Assembly (NCBI GenBank): GCA_016932075.1
Contig: JAFGDP010000065.1
Span: forward strand, 1-12,642
Length of the DNA: 12,642 nucleotides
DNA from: Chitinispirillaceae bacterium
GTDB taxonomy: Bacteria; Fibrobacterota; Chitinivibrionia; Chitinivibrionales; Chitinispirillaceae
Direction of reading: 5' to 3'
Shown here: positions 2,569-10,488 of the stretch, piece after piece
Position numbering within the stretch: position 1 is the stretch's first letter
How the letters are laid out: the number at the start of each line of letters is the position of its first letter
Program-made: the position numbers and the translations under genes
Notes under the pieces: model-generated
Database searches by the model: none
What the model saw: only the letters and a program-made list of their open reading frames with translations
Told to the model about the DNA's origin: nothing

Positions 2569-2587
2569 AATAAAAAATTCATGAGCT

Positions 2588-2718
2588 CACCGCAGAGACG
2601 CGGAGATCGCAGAGGATGAAGGAGCAGAAAAGGATAGGTTTTGTCGGAGAAGTTTTTATGTATCCTGTTTACCTTCATTTTGCATTTCTTTCTCCGCGTA
2701 CTCTGCGTCTCTGCGGTG
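2588..2718. repeat. Inverted pair of CGCAGAGACGC-type dispersed repeats in the tdh-kbl spacer
   Basis: The left arm 2588-2615 begins CACCGCAGAGACGC. The right arm 2691-2718 is its inverted copy, ending GCGTCTCTGCGGTG. By hand, 23 of 28 positions pair. The interior can continue pairing in parts (AGGATA/TATCCT, TGAAGG/CCTTCA), so the whole unit could fold as one long hairpin in the tdh-kbl transcript. The motif is familiar as a common dispersed intergenic repeat in environmental genomes (memory, not searched). It is neither a tRNA nor a CRISPR. Confidence 0.8.
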
Positions 2719-2758
2719 AAATACTTGTTTTTATTTTTATCAGACACCGGAGGGTACC

Positions 2759-3997
2759 ATGGCACTGAATAAACTGGCGGCCGCCCTTGATAAAGAGTTG
2801 CAGCAGCTCCGTGGCGAGGGCAGGGCAAAGGGCAAAGAAGACATCATCGTGGGCGTTAAAAAGCCGCAGGGAGACAAGGGTCCGCGGTACCTCCTCAAGG
2901 GAAAGGGCGACAAGGAGTATATCCGGTTCAACTCAAATTCCTATCTGGGCATGTCGCTCGATCCGTCGGCCATCGCCGCCGAGGAGAAGGCGGTGCATGC
3001 CTTTGGGGTTGGCCCCGGGGCGGTGCGGTTCATCAACGGAACGTTCGAGGCCCACCGCGATCTCGAAAAAAGGCTCGCGCAATTCCACGGCTTCGAGGAC
3101 GCGGTCATTTTCAGCTGCGCCTACGCGACCATGATCGGCGTGTTCAACTCGCTCACCTCGGCCGAGACCGTCATCATTTCGGACGAACTGAACCATAACT
3201 GCATCATCAACGCCATGAAGCTCTCCCGGCCCAAGGAGAAGATGATTTACAAGCACAACAACATGCAGGTCCTCGAACAGCAGATCAAGTCGTGCGTCGG
3301 CATATGCAGCCGCGTGCTCATCGTCACGGACGGCATCTTCAGCATGCGGGGCGACTTCGCGCCGCTCGATGTCATCTGCGGGCTCGCGGAAAAGTACGAC
3401 GCCTCGTTCCCGGAAAACATCGTGATCATGGTCGACGACTCGCACGGCGTGGGCGCGTTCGGCGAGACCGGCCGGGGCACGCTTGAGCGCACCAACGCCA
3501 GGGGCGTGGACGTCCTCATCGGCACGCTGGGCAAGGCCTTCGGCGTGAATGGCGGCTATGTGGTGACCAGCCTGGCGCTCACCCGCTACATCCGCGAAAA
3601 GGCAATCACCTACATCTATTCCAACCCCATCACCGTGGGCGAAGCGGCCGCGTGCGGCGCGGTCCTTGACTTCATCGACAGCCCGCGGGGCAGGGAGCGG
3701 CTGCAGCACGTGCGCACCCTGGCAAAGCGGTTCGCCGACGGCTGCATAAAACTGGGTTTTGAAATCATCGAGAGCGGGCACCCCATCGTGCCGCTCATGA
3801 TACGCGACACGAAAAAGACGTCGGAGCTGGTCGCCTTTTTCAAGGAGCACGGCGTCCTCACCACGGGCCTGAACTTCCCGGTGGTGCCGAACGGCGACCA
3901 GACCATCCGCTGCCAGGTGAACGGCAGCCACACGGCCGCGGACATCGACGACGTGCTTTCCGTGCTGAAAAAATACCGGGAGACGAAGACGGCGTAG
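2759..3997 (+). CDS. kbl: 2-amino-3-ketobutyrate CoA ligase (glycine C-acetyltransferase)
   Basis: A PLP enzyme that cleaves 2-amino-3-ketobutyrate with CoA to glycine plus acetyl-CoA, completing the pathway begun by Tdh just upstream. The 412 residues are slightly longer than the usual 398 or so. Class II alpha-oxoamine synthase landmarks: NSYLGMS (60-66), GVGPGAVRFINGT (83-95), the PLP-stacking His146 in DELNHNC, VDDSHGVGAFG (225-235) with the pyridine-binding Asp and His229, the Schiff-base Lys259 in GTLGKAFG, and Arg384 in TIRCQ for the substrate carboxylate. A GGAGGG site ends four bases before ATG 2759. The family includes 8-amino-7-oxononanoate and 5-aminolevulinate synthases. Adjacency to tdh decides the assignment. 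The N-terminal 45 residues, with KGEDK/GDKG-like charged stretches, are less typical. No clear terminator follows. Confidence 0.92.
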   Translation: MALNKLAAALDKELQQLRGEGRAKGKEDIIVGVKKPQGDKGPRYLLKGKGDKEYIRFNSNSYLGMSLDPSAIAAEEKAVHAFGVGPGAVRFINGTFEAHRDLEKRLAQFHGFEDAVIFSCAYATMIGVFNSLTSAETVIISDELNHNCIINAMKLSRPKEKMIYKHNNMQVLEQQIKSCVGICSRVLIVTDGIFSMRGDFAPLDVICGLAEKYDASFPENIVIMVDDSHGVGAFGETGRGTLERTNARGVDVLIGTLGKAFGVNGGYVVTSLALTRYIREKAITYIYSNPITVGEAAACGAVLDFIDSPRGRERLQHVRTLAKRFADGCIKLGFEIIESGHPIVPLMIRDTKKTSELVAFFKEHGVLTTGLNFPVVPNGDQTIRCQVNGSHTAADIDDVLSVLKKYRETKTA

Positions 3998-4411
3998 ATT
4001 GGGCAATTATCACAGAGGGCCTGCATTCAGCATACCATCCTTAGACAGGCTCAGGATGACGTCGCATGTGCCTGAAAAAAACTGATAGGTAATTGTTTTT
4101 TTTCCGGAGCGGGCTGGTATCCTGTAATGCTGCAACTGCATACGACATGATCTGTCCTCTGAAGGGTAAAACCAGAGAGACAGTACAAATCGTATGCCGG
4201 AAAATGCAGAAACGTCACATTAGCAACCATAGCAACAACTAACAACGAATGGAACGGCTCTGCACTACTTTGCAGAAAATCGCTTAATCGCAGCAGAAAC
4301 AACTTGTGGTCGCAAAGCTGCAACACAGCACCTTAAAACCGATCGCTGTACTTGGTGTTTACCGGAGCGTATCTTAAAGGCAGGAAAAGCCAAGGTATTC
4401 AAGAAAATCGC
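3998..4411. other. AT-richer region left of the attC site, no convincing gene
   Basis: A 414-base stretch between kbl and the attC site. Hand-counted GC is about 46% over 4081-4560, against clearly above 60% in tdh and kbl. In integron logic this should be the body of a cassette read on the plus strand, but no plus frame has both a start and reasonable length. The best is ATG 4149, giving 31 residues. A longer plus frame runs without a stop from 4230 into the attC (stop at 4467-4469), but it has no usable start codon. A 91-codon minus frame (4051-4326, GTG start) does not look like a protein. The content is either a decayed cassette or a non-coding cassette. Confidence 0.45.
4041..4062. repeat. 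Fragment of GACAGGCTCAGGATGAC-type dispersed repeat
   Basis: The text CTTAGACAGGCTCAGGATGACG (4041-4062) matches a widespread intergenic repeat family usually read as TTCGACAGGCTCAGGATGAC. A related inverted fragment (GGTGAGATTGTCGAACCA) lies at 5799-5816. Recognised by eye only. It marks the left boundary of the accessory island. Confidence 0.5.
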
Positions 4412-4471
4412 GCCTAACAATCTGCTCAACCGGACTGCAAACTGCCGCAGCCGGTTAGCAGTGTGTTAGAC
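4412..4471 (+). mobile_element. Integron attC recombination site (cassette-associated)
   Basis: Outer core boxes are GCCTAAC (4412-4418, fits RYYYAAC) and GTTAGAC (4465-4471, fits GTTRRRY). Inner boxes CTGCTCAACCGG (4422-4433) and CCGGTTAGCAG (4451-4461) pair completely except for C4427, an extrahelical base. The stem then continues CTGC (4435-4438) with GCAG (4447-4450), leaving A4434 as a second extrahelical base and an 8-base terminal loop. On the recombinogenic bottom strand the bulges are G and T, in the places expected for IntI-bound attC hairpins. The spacing from the left box to the first bulge equals that of the classical aadA attC as I remember it. Orientation implies the associated cassette lies to the left and that cleavage would fall after G4465. 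Confidence 0.88.
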
Positions 4472-4522
4472 CTATTAAGCCAGGAGACTTTTTAAAACTG
4501 TTGGAGGCATAGTAGGAGCGCA

Positions 4523-4750
4523 ATATCCTTACGTATTCCGAACTCCATTCATTCGCGGGTAAAGAACTTGGCGGAATACGACGGCGTTTCAGTAAACCAA
4601 TTTATCACAGTTGCCATCACGGAAAAACTTTCTGTTATGAATGCTGCTGAATATTTTAGCGAAAAGGCCAGCAAAGGCAGCAGGGATAAATTCGATCAGG
4701 TTCTTTCAAAGGTTTCAAAGAGAGAGCCGCTTGAATATGATAAAAAATGA
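4523..4750 (+). CDS. HicB/CopG-like ribbon-helix-helix antitoxin, ATG start apparently lost
   Basis: The frame reads ISLRIPNSIHSRVKNLAEYD, then GVSVNQFITVAITEKLS, then AAEYFSEKASKGSRDKFDQV and a tail ending EPLEYDKK. This is the layout of small HicB-family or CopG-type antitoxins: a DNA-contacting beta strand, helix A, the GVSxNQFI turn and helix B, then a toxin-binding tail. No ATG, GTG or TTG opens the full domain. The codon at the expected start is ATA (4523-4525), preceded by GGAG (4516-4519) at normal spacing. The first usable start, TTG 4568, would drop the beta strand and half of helix A. It therefore looks like an ATG-to-ATA loss, a rare non-canonical start or a base error. GC is about 41%, unlike the neighbours. 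No toxin gene is recognisable beside it. It sits directly behind the attC site, typical of integron cassette cargo. Confidence 0.62.
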   Translation: MSLRIPNSIHSRVKNLAEYDGVSVNQFITVAITEKLSVMNAAEYFSEKASKGSRDKFDQVLSKVSKREPLEYDKK

Positions 4751-4794
4751 AAAAGCCCGCCGCCAAGAAATAGGGGAAGGGGCGCAAGCAAATC

Positions 4795-4942
4795 CGCCAA
4801 CAGCGGTATGGGCGCTGCGGCCGGAAACCCGGCCTTGGCCTCCGGCAATTACCCGGTTCTACGCCTCCGTCACCGTCTTCGCTTCGCTCACGGTATCATG
4901 TAGGCGCTCCGGACAACTTCACCATACCGCGAGACGTTGGCG
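4795..4942. repeat. Long imperfect inverted repeat after the antitoxin gene
   Basis: CGCCAAC (4795-4801) pairs with GTTGGCG (4936-4942), and GCGGTATGG (4803-4811) pairs with CCATACCGC (4922-4930). A third match, CCGGA (4821-4825) with TCCGG (4908-4912), keeps equal 9-base spacing in both arms. Spacers between the outer two boxes differ (1 versus 5 bases). Inside are smaller hairpins: GGCCGG/CCGGCC (4819-4834) and ACCGT/ACGGT. It could be a very degenerate attC, a dispersed repeat or a structured RNA. The end boxes do not fit the strict attC consensus. Confidence 0.55.
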
Positions 4943-5040
4943 CAATTAATCCGGCAATATATTTTGCTTGAAAGCGCCAGGTCGACGCCACTGACCGCCG
5001 CGGAATAACGCATGGAATACAACTTTTTCAGGAGGACGCA

Positions 5041-5580
5041 ATGAAACCACGGGGACCGTTGATGATCGAGCACCGGTTGATAGAAAAAATGCTGAAGATC
5101 GCGGGCAGGGAATTGGATGTGATGAGGAAGGAAAAGACCGTTGATCCGGTTTTTATTGATACGCTTGTTGATTTTATAAGGACCTATGCCGACCGCACCC
5201 ATCATGGCAAGGAGGAGGATATTCTTTTCAGGGAATTGGAAAAGAAAACGCTCAATGACAGGGATAAGGATGGCATGCGGGAGTTGATCGATGAACATAT
5301 ATCGGCCAGGAAGGCCGTGAAAGAGCTGGTCGCAGCAAAAACCAGATATGCGGACGGCGATTCAGGCAGTATTGACGGCATCATTGAGAAACTGGACTAC
5401 CTGATCAAGTTTTATCCCGAGCATATCCGGAAAGAGGACAAGGTGTTTTTTCCTGACACGGAGAAATACTTTTCGGATGAAGAATTGGATGCAATGCTCG
5501 GTGATTTCTGGGAATTTGACAGAAAAATGATTCATGAAAAATACACCCGGTTATATGAATCATTATCGGAAAAATACTGA
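5041..5580 (+). CDS. Hemerythrin HHE-domain protein
   Basis: A stand-alone soluble four-helix protein of 179 residues that should bind a non-heme di-iron centre. In this family the role is O2, NO or iron sensing, or stress protection; the exact role is unknown here. Likely iron ligands: His11 (MIEHRLIEKML), His54 and/or His55 with Glu58/59 (THHGKEEDILF), His86 (LIDEHISARKAV), and His128 with Glu132 (PEHIRKEDKVFFP). This matches the H...HxxxE...H...HxxxE hemerythrin pattern. It resembles the group annotated as hemerythrin domain-containing proteins in anaerobes. A strong AGGAGG (5030-5035) lies five bases before the ATG. It is a monocistronic unit between the accessory island and a repeat-rich gap. 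There is no signal peptide, so it is cytoplasmic. Confidence 0.93.
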   Translation: MKPRGPLMIEHRLIEKMLKIAGRELDVMRKEKTVDPVFIDTLVDFIRTYADRTHHGKEEDILFRELEKKTLNDRDKDGMRELIDEHISARKAVKELVAAKTRYADGDSGSIDGIIEKLDYLIKFYPEHIRKEDKVFFPDTEKYFSDEELDAMLGDFWEFDRKMIHEKYTRLYESLSEKY

Positions 5581-7962: not shown

Positions 7963-8100
7963 CAGCGGAAAATACGTTATTTTCACTGATAATCCGGACC
8001 GGTTGAATCTGTTGCCTGTATTTTACTATCTTACCTAAACATCAAAGATCATTACATCCAGAACCATTATCCTTGTCCACGCCCAAACAAAGGAGTCGTG

Positions 8101-10488
8101 ATGCGTTTAAAGATACTGCTGTTGGCTGTAGCACTGGTGCTCATGAACTGCGCCGCATACAAGCAACTCAAGCCCAAACCCGGGCTTGAGAGCAAGGAAG
8201 CCGGATACATCGAACTGAAGAAGAAGGCCAAGAAGAATTTCTCGCTTAAAAAGGGCAAAAAATACTTTATCACCTTTCCCGGCCCGTCAGAAGACCACTT
8301 CTACCTGGTGGTCACGTCACCGCAGAAACAGAAGTTCGCTACGTCGCTGACCGACCGGCTTGAAAAGAAAAAGACCCCCGGCGCACTGATCGGGGACGAG
8401 ACCTGGGGCCCTGAAACCATGAGCGTTTACCCGATCAACAAGAGCGTGCCTGCCTATTACCTTCTCATCGACAAGGTGTCGGAGAACCTCAAGGACCTGC
8501 CCATCAAGTACCGTTATACGCCCCAGTGGCGGTTCAAGTTCGAGGGCAAGCACGCCATCTACAAGGAAACGCTTGCAAAAAACCGCGTGGACCGGGGAGT
8601 GTACAACGCCATCGGGACCAGCCTGCATCTGGAGGATTTCAATTACACCTTGGTCATGGATACCGTGTCAAAGCACACGGCGGAGCTTGAAAAGCTTGAG
8701 AAGGAGCTGCGGGCGCTTGAAAGCATTTTCCCCTCCGACATGCTCAACTCCACGGACGTCGCGTATCTGAACTATAAGAAGCTCAAGAAGGAGCTTGACG
8801 AGGAGATCGCGTTCCAGACCGCCTATGTCAGCGTGCTCGGCTTTTTCCACCGGGAGTATCAGACCAGGAAAAATCCGTTCACGTTCCTCGGATTCACCGA
8901 GGACTTCATCGCCTACTTTTCAAAAAAGAAAGAGCTGCCCGACCATATTGTCAAAGAGAGCCAGACCTATCTTGAAAAGCGGCTCGCCGAACTGCCCGCT
9001 TTTTTCGATGAGCGGCTGAAGACCAAAGAGGACGCGGCACCGCTTGATACCAGCTATTTCCGTGTTGGCGCGAGAAACCTGCTCGACTCCCTGCACGCGG
9101 TTGCCGAAGTTGCCATGCCAAAGGAGCTGGCCGCAGTCGTGAAATTCATGACCGATTTCGACGCCAACGGCAACGCCATGCTTGGCATAAAGGATTCGCT
9201 CGCCGAACTGGCGAAGTTCGTCAAGGAGGGGCCGAGCCTGCCGCCGGACGACTTTTTCAAGAAGGTGAATGCCCGTGCCGCCGGGCTGGAACAGGTCATT
9301 CCCAAGGGCATCGACAAATCATACGGAAAATACCATGAGATGCCCTGCGCCAAGAAACTCAACGAAGCGATCGGCGCGTTCAACACCGAGGTGCTCAAGC
9401 AGATCGCCCAGTACCGCGAGGCCGAGCAGATGGTGGTCCAGTTGAACGTGCTCAAGGCGGGAAAGGATTACAGCGGCATGATCGGCATGCTCAAGGCCAA
9501 GCCGGAGCTCACCTTCCTTATCGAAAAATATCGCGGGCTCGACAAGATGTCGATCGACGCGCAGGTTGGCGCCATCAAGACCGCGCTCGGCAGCAATGCG
9601 TGGCGCGACGCAGAATCCGGCCTTAAAACACTGCACGCCGACCAGAATTTTCTCGATCCTGCCATGCTGCAGGTCAAGGAGGCGGCGGTCATGGATTACG
9701 AGGATTCGCTCTATTCCAAGGTTGAGCGGGTGACCAGACGGGCCGTGACCAAGTTCCTGGATGACAATGTGAACAAGTTCGAGGACATCGATTCGTTCTA
9801 TACGGATTCGGTGTTCCTGCCCGTCTACGACATTACGTTCTCCTCGGGGTCGCGCAAGGAGCTTGTCCAGCGCAAGGCAACGCTGGTCGCCGATCTTGCC
9901 AAGATGAAGGAGAACGAGTTCCCGGCGCGGGCCGTCCAGCTGCTGTTCAAGGAGTTCGTCAAAAACCCGAATGACAACGGCGTGCTCAAGGCCCGTGCGA
10001 TCGTTGCCCACGGCAATCATTACAAGGGCGAGGACGACGAGGTCAAGCGGCGGATCGCCGAGGCCGATCCGATGCGGGCCAAGTGGATCGTGGAGCCCAA
10101 AAAATACCGCCGTGTGCTCGTGGTCCCGGTCACCGACAACCGGAGAGGCACGAACAAATACGTGGTCCGGTTCAACGTGAAGATCAAGAAGGAGGAGGCG
10201 GTATTCCCGGTCTATGATGTCAACATCAAGCTGCCCAAGGAGGTGGCCCAAAACGCGGCGTCAACCCAGTGGTACGAGACCATCAAGCTCAACAAGAAGC
10301 TGTTGAAGAACGAGGGCAGGTTCACCATCACCGCGCCGACGGCGGAAAATGACTATGTGTGCCAGATGACGCCGGTCCAGATGAGCAAGGAAAAAACCAA
10401 TGTTCTGGAGATCGTGTTCAAATACCCGGCGTTCAAGGTGGTGCAGGTCAGCGTCATGGTACAGAAACCAATTATCAAGAAGAACTGA
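8101..10488 (+). CDS. Large uncharacterised lipoprotein
   Basis: I recognise no family. 795 residues from ATG 8101, chosen because AGGAG (8091-8095) is five bases away; an in-frame GTG at 8098 is too close. The N-terminus is a lipoprotein signal: MRLK, a hydrophobic run, then LVLMNC with Cys17. Asn at -1 is unusual for a lipobox. Regions: a lysine-rich linker and a strand-rich domain (about 20-145, with KKYFITFPGPSEDHFYLVVT); a long helical middle (about 180-630) with charged heptad-like stretches such as AELEKLEKELRALES; and a strand-rich C-terminal domain (about 675-790, with YVVRFNVKIKKEE and VLEIVFKYPAFKVVQVSV). It is probably anchored in the outer or inner membrane facing the periplasm. 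It is followed after 12 bases by a solute-binding-like protein gene, so the two are one operon and probably work together. Confidence 0.88.
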   Translation: MRLKILLLAVALVLMNCAAYKQLKPKPGLESKEAGYIELKKKAKKNFSLKKGKKYFITFPGPSEDHFYLVVTSPQKQKFATSLTDRLEKKKTPGALIGDETWGPETMSVYPINKSVPAYYLLIDKVSENLKDLPIKYRYTPQWRFKFEGKHAIYKETLAKNRVDRGVYNAIGTSLHLEDFNYTLVMDTVSKHTAELEKLEKELRALESIFPSDMLNSTDVAYLNYKKLKKELDEEIAFQTAYVSVLGFFHREYQTRKNPFTFLGFTEDFIAYFSKKKELPDHIVKESQTYLEKRLAELPAFFDERLKTKEDAAPLDTSYFRVGARNLLDSLHAVAEVAMPKELAAVVKFMTDFDANGNAMLGIKDSLAELAKFVKEGPSLPPDDFFKKVNARAAGLEQVIPKGIDKSYGKYHEMPCAKKLNEAIGAFNTEVLKQIAQYREAEQMVVQLNVLKAGKDYSGMIGMLKAKPELTFLIEKYRGLDKMSIDAQVGAIKTALGSNAWRDAESGLKTLHADQNFLDPAMLQVKEAAVMDYEDSLYSKVERVTRRAVTKFLDDNVNKFEDIDSFYTDSVFLPVYDITFSSGSRKELVQRKATLVADLAKMKENEFPARAVQLLFKEFVKNPNDNGVLKARAIVAHGNHYKGEDDEVKRRIAEADPMRAKWIVEPKKYRRVLVVPVTDNRRGTNKYVVRFNVKIKKEEAVFPVYDVNIKLPKEVAQNAASTQWYETIKLNKKLLKNEGRFTITAPTAENDYVCQMTPVQMSKEKTNVLEIVFKYPAFKVVQVSVMVQKPIIKKN

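Follow-up and report, generated by a model that had tools for sequence, protein, structure and literature searches.

A lone attC site on an integrase-free contig of a Chitinispirillaceae bacterium, likely the remnant of a decayed integron cassette

Integron attC sites are the places at which mobile gene cassettes are cut and joined, and the 60-nt hairpin described here lies among genes of ordinary function on a contig that carries no integron integrase. Is it a true attC site and, if so, how might it have come to this place? A reading made from the letters alone (below, the sequence-only reading) had called it a well-formed attC site, lone or of the CALIN type, between a housekeeping pathway and a hemerythrin gene. 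By the window we mean the whole stretch of DNA that was analyzed, which appears to be the entire 12,642-base contig; one contig end is about 4.4 kb from the site and the other about 8.2 kb. The features discussed below are collected in Table 1.

Table 1. Features of the attC locus, with positions in the window and the basis of each assignment.
Feature	Position	Strand	Basis
Open frame without ATG, GTG or TTG at its head, running through the attC site	4233-4469	+	Open reading frames
attC site, 60 nt	4412-4471	+	Covariance model R1; layout detector (score 17)
Core box R'', GCCTAAC (RYYYAAC)	4412-4418	+	Sequence; pattern scan
Inner box L'', CTGCT(C)AACCGG	4422-4433	+	Detector (5 pairs, bulged C, 6 pairs); fold
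First extrahelical base, C (G on the bottom strand), inside L''	4427	+	Detector; fold
Second extrahelical base, A (T on the bottom strand)	4434	+	Fold; bottom-strand reading
Inner box L', CCGGTTAGCAG (CCGGTT-AGCAG), pairs with L''	4451-4461	+	Detector; fold
Core box R', GTTAGAC (GTTRRRY)	4465-4471	+	Sequence; pattern scan
HicB-family (PF05534) antitoxin frame	4517-4750	+	Pfam, E 1.1e-6, 28.9 bits (cut-off 21)

Structure and recognition of the site

Inspection of the sequence confirmed that the core boxes, the paired inner boxes and the two bulged bases all lie where the sequence-only reading had placed them. R'' and R' are complementary at 6 of 7 positions, as befits a pair of attC core boxes, and L'' and L' form 11 pairs, with spacers of 3 and 3 nt between the R and L boxes. 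A central stem and loop lie between the bulged A and L'. Cleavage would fall in R' between G4465 and T4466 (G^TT), which we take to be the usual place.

That reading had also proposed folding the bottom strand. As single-stranded DNA this strand gives a bulged hairpin of -18.3 kcal/mol and the top strand gives the same hairpin at -18.0 kcal/mol; the stability corresponds to a z of about -5.9 and was equaled by none of 200 shuffled sequences. The Pfold values of the two strands are 0.72 and 0.71. Folding energy alone therefore cannot pick the bottom strand, and a choice on this basis was rejected. On the bottom strand the extrahelical bases read T-CCGGTT-G, that is T-N6-G, and the predicted fold places both on its 3' arm. 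In the portion of PMC3053210 available, such a same-side pair is characteristic of folded attC bottom strands, and the attC sites that IntI1 excises most easily have the T-N6-G arrangement. The bottom (-) strand is predicted to be the recombinogenic one.

Two approaches were used to judge how readily such a layout appears by chance. The layout detector demands both core boxes, complementarity of the R boxes at 5 or more of 7 positions, at least 9 inner pairs and one bulge in the 5' arm. It returned 31 sites in 852,276 bases of partly overlapping sequence, namely the window site and 30 sites in integrase-bearing loci (6 in Krumholzibacteriota, 21 on a Gemmatirosa plasmid and 3 on class 1 integron plasmids). 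It found none when both strands of 3,000 dinucleotide-shuffled versions of the window were scanned. The covariance model R1 is home-made, with a rough, short calibration, and was built from 27 attC sites, trimmed to 30 + 30 nt, with the window site left out; its training set shows strong covariation, with 91 cells in which both sides are changed where shuffling gives a mean of 33. With filters off, R1 scored the window site at 51.3 bits (E 1.7e-10) on the + strand, within the range of known sites, versus 19.6 bits on the - strand. The covariance-model check that the sequence-only reading had proposed gave a high score, with R1 in place of the IntegronFinder model. Over 49 sources (753,400 bases, default filters) the window site came 34th among 95 matches; apart from it, the strong ones fall in integron loci, several of the matched array sites being members of the training set.

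In 14 loci fetched regardless of integrons (L001-L011, L024-L026) R1 matched nothing up to E 10. On the 5' side of 20 Krumholzibacteriota integrases a loose pattern search gave scattered matches and no arrays, and R1, run on 19 of these 20 loci, had no match up to E 10 in any of them. On the 3' side, 9 of the 11 loci run through R1 (of 20) match at 30 bits or more. In these 9 of 11 Krumholzibacteriota loci and in Gemmatirosa the attC sites lie 3' of the integrase and in the same orientation (the loci behind this layout are L057-L060, L064, L066, L070 and L075-L077), opposite to what is seen in the class 1 integrons that we fetched. Many Krumholzibacteriota MAG contigs stop shortly past the integrase on this 3', attC-bearing side.

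The surroundings of the site

The contig carries, in order, hisH (on the - strand), a threonine dehydrogenase, a KBL/BioF-type acyltransferase, the interval 3998-5040 that holds the attC site, a hemerythrin, a sodium:solute symporter, an unclassified 796-aa protein and a solute-binding protein. They have the look of ordinary chromosomal genes, and the location is probably chromosomal. The sequence-only reading set the site between a housekeeping pathway and the hemerythrin gene, which is too simple: it made no mention of the HicB-family frame directly downstream of the site. A search with the solute-binding protein gave 853 relatives among 7,996 candidates scored, and among the 120 relatives listed six carry organism names, five of Chitinispirillaceae and one of Fibrobacter sp. 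Together with a HicB relative named Chitinivibrionales (below), these source-given names make a Fibrobacterota host (Chitinispirillaceae-like) probable. Relatives of the KBL-type protein were found at 11 loci in genome contigs, the best at 69% identity in Krumholzibacteriota and none under a Fibrobacterota name; a relative of the solute-binding protein appeared in none of the 6 genomes behind these loci that were tried, and these genomes are of no help in placing the host. The profile TIGR02249 matched 7 of 8 genomes behind these loci, none over the family cut-off, and this result was set aside because the same loose E-value also matched 14 of 14 control genomes. The 796-aa protein (8098-10488), which adjoins the solute-binding protein, has no Pfam or NCBIfam match. 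Two further stretches of the window (2583-2725 and 4016-4060) appear to resemble short repeats of many environmental genomes, with a palindrome around CGCAGAGACGCGGAG and the CATCCTTAGACAGGCTCAGGATGACG motif.

Within these 12.6 kb the site stands alone. With filters off and E up to 10, the only other R1 match in the window is the site's own opposite strand. In 3990-5040 there is no + strand GTTRRRY besides R', and + strand RYYYAAC boxes are confined to the attC itself. When three IntI proteins were compared with the window by tblastn, only fragments with E 0.52 or worse were obtained, while the positive control was recovered, and a profile of the same three proteins matched nothing at E 10 among 180 window frames of at least 40 aa. 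The claims that the window holds no integrase and no second attC are borne out. A single attC lacking an integron integrase is termed a SALIN (PMC12690207, in the part available), and this label fits the contig, which falls short of a complete integron by its want of an integrase. Of the proposed "lone or CALIN-type" the first half stands. The second does not, since IntegronFinder 2 requires by default two clustered attC sites for a CALIN and one is present; the accessible part of PMC9024848 adds that single-attC CALINs may be true positives.

An intact cassette is not recognizable in the interval, as the frame upstream has no usual start and no second + strand GTTRRRY marks a cassette boundary in 3990-5040. 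This upstream frame ends in a TAG at 4467-4469, inside R'. The sole relative found for it is a metagenome protein (P0053; 74% identity over 50 aa), and both contain the peptide APNNLLNRTANCRSRLA, which is encoded by the attC. Compared with window positions 4233-4466, P0053 is alike as far as the L' box, and the two part company a few bases ahead of where R' lies, as if one cassette had different neighbors after it. Cassette shuffling would leave roughly such a picture, as judged from one protein on a 1,549-base contig. The upstream frame likely represents the end, now decayed, of the cassette that owned this attC.

The HicB-family frame begins 45 nt after R'. A protein search returned 52 proteins, the window's own among them. 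The best full-length relative is 87% identical, and 41 of the 51 others (P0002-P0042) share 75-87% identity over 92-100% of the query; 39 of these 41 are 78 aa long, and the close relatives come from metagenomes. One relative is named Chitinivibrionales, an order of Fibrobacterota. All 15 relatives that were read start with Met where the window has AGG (4514), and no ATG, GTG or TTG lies between the preceding stop and this codon. The window copy is for these reasons probably broken, to judge by the sequence. No toxin partner was recognized in the frames scanned, and PADLOC and NCBIfam gave no match to the frame itself. Relatives were absent from viral contigs, and plasmids yielded only 7 records, all below 60% identity. 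The 80 Krumholzibacteriota genomes contain 3 weak relatives (best 45% identity), none with an attC in its locus (L024-L026). These three attC-free loci speak against the antitoxin as a cassette gene. The integron of Vibrio cholerae does hold toxin-antitoxin cassettes (PMC11023631, in the part available). The frame may possibly be a second cassette gene.

Comparison with known attC sites and with other lone sites

The attC of the aadA1 cassette in a class 1 integron (L079, Leclercia plasmid p4) provides a convenient standard. It is likewise 60 nt long, with RYYYAAC and GTTRRRY boxes, and it shares with the window site the position of the extrahelical base counted from R'', two bulges on the same side and a similar folding energy (-18.8 versus -18.3 kcal/mol). 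It differs in the sequence of its inner boxes, in its R-L spacers (5 and 6 nt, compared with 3 and 3) and in having 9 inner pairs rather than 11; and the window site, unlike that of aadA1, has no integrase nearby. The chromosomal-type attC sites of Krumholzibacteriota and Gemmatirosa, which supply 24 of the 27 training sites, resemble the window site in boxes, bulges and spacing class, and three from Krumholzibacteriota also have spacers of 3 and 3 nt. They all come from integrase loci, however, and 21 of the 24 are 96-131 nt long, with longer central parts. The window shares with SALINs and CALINs an attC on a contig without intI, and differs from them in that no intact cassette gene can be recognized. 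Similarly, the downstream frame exceeds the Pfam cut-off for HicB-family antitoxins, but it lacks the usual start and a recognized toxin partner.

How often do attC sites stand apart from an integrase? An integron integrase exceeds the family cut-off in 40 of 80 Krumholzibacteriota genomes and is matched in 43 at E up to 1e-40. R1 found 93 attC sites in 33 of these genomes (E up to 1e-4, with strict filters by which weak sites are lost). Of the 55 contigs that bear these sites, 42 lack an integrase match at E up to 1e-40, and a single site is all that 32 of these 42 hold; at the same threshold 10 of the 33 attC-bearing genomes have no integrase at all. Because the contigs are broken this tally of lone sites is overstated, and 10 of the 32 single-site cases fall within 900 bases of a contig start. 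Even so, lone attC sites look common. Five of them (L081-L085) lie on megabase contigs (G022:C1, G040:C2 and G081:C1), away from the other sites there. Three of the five neighborhoods fetched were read, and each has an open frame that terminates in R'' or ten bases ahead of it. These five sites are candidates for single-cassette insertions outside integrons.

Origin and meaning of the site

As a whole, these results favor the conclusion, to which we give a probability of roughly 0.87, that positions 4412-4471 are a complete lone attC (a SALIN) and likely what remains of a decayed cassette, or of a very short array, that was once inserted by an integron integrase. The cassette-like neighbors are in the right order and on the right strand, one frame ending inside R' and the antitoxin frame following it. 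The history of a cassette is not directly visible, because 3990-5040 lacks a cassette start boundary and the antitoxin frame is not followed by an attC. We infer the following sequence of events. An integron integrase would have inserted one or more cassettes at this locus; the cassette genes would then have decayed while the structure of the attC was kept, leaving neither an integrase nor another attC on the contig. By the known mechanism of integrons, the bulged hairpin would form from the bottom strand, IntI would recognize its extrahelical T and G (as described in the available portion of PMC3053210), and cleavage would take place at G^TT in R'. With no integrase in cis, this attC would stay inert unless IntI were supplied in trans, and for an integrase so supplied it is predicted, from the modeled fold, still to be a substrate.

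Three other explanations deserve consideration. The least probable is that the hairpin is an unrelated palindrome, be it a terminator, a REP-type repeat or a structured RNA. A stable palindrome in an intergenic stretch invites this thought, and each version of it was tried: the terminator was rejected as no terminator-like call falls at the site, the structured RNA as there is no Rfam match, and the tRNA as none was found. Nor does the site behave as a repeat, a possibility that the sequence-only reading had set against its own proposal. It has no further copy within 3900-5100; positions 4404-4471 have no copy in plasmids, where one 34-base match at E 6 was obtained, or in phages; and viral contigs contain no exact match to a 23-base piece of it. 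In these collections, at least, the proposal withstood the challenge. Comparison at the DNA level of 4000-5040 with plasmids and of 4190-4471 with phages likewise gave no useful match. The full attC layout, the unequal R1 scores of the two strands and the empty shuffles are further arguments against a chance palindrome. It is also improbable, if less so, that the contig is part of a live integron or of a larger CALIN, with the integrase and other cassettes past the contig ends. The window is the whole contig, MAG contigs often break near arrays, and several of the Krumholzibacteriota integrase matches have a contig end 200 to 1,000 bases away. But the attC lies several kilobases from either end, between ordinary genes and without another attC on the contig, and a continuous array would have adjacent cassettes.

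The third explanation is a serious, though clearly weaker, competitor. A single cassette may have been inserted by a trans-acting integrase at a genomic site of the attG type, after which its gene decayed, and the HicB frame would be an unrelated resident gene. Insertion of cassettes at attG sites was reportedly described by Loot et al. in 2024. The subject is treated in PMC12690207, PMC12444791 and PMC11023631, as far as the available portions of these papers go. Such an event would agree with the lone sites that lie away from arrays on the three megabase contigs mentioned above, with the open frames that end at the site in the three neighborhoods read, as they do in one-gene cassettes, and with the HicB relatives in L024-L026 that have no attC nearby. 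On the other hand, the HicB frame occupies the place of a next cassette gene, and at a bare G-W-T site the last four letters of R' would be chromosome-derived and would fit RRRY in about 1 of 16 cases. Since R' is a full GTTRRRY, a following second cassette, that of the HicB frame, would be slightly favored over insertion at a bare attG.

A lone attC without an integrase is in itself a known and fairly ordinary situation. Our search of the open-licence literature found no report of integrons in Chitinivibrionales or Fibrobacteres, which is a weak negative. To find an attC so well preserved in an environmental lineage that is uncultured strengthens the case that bacterial genomes carry scattered recombination sites outside arrays as well as in them. 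The bulges are arranged as in the sites best excised by IntI1, and for this reason the site would be a fair test of whether integrases from outside can still use orphan sites. Tentatively, one might go further and suppose that integron cassettes have spread into Fibrobacterota (Chitinispirillaceae-like bacteria) and that this site marks an antitoxin-adjoined cassette delivered outside any array, a view that we consider doubtful at present. If it were true, orphan attC sites of this sort would record, like fossils, where integrases once acted, and would offer new cassettes a ready place to land.
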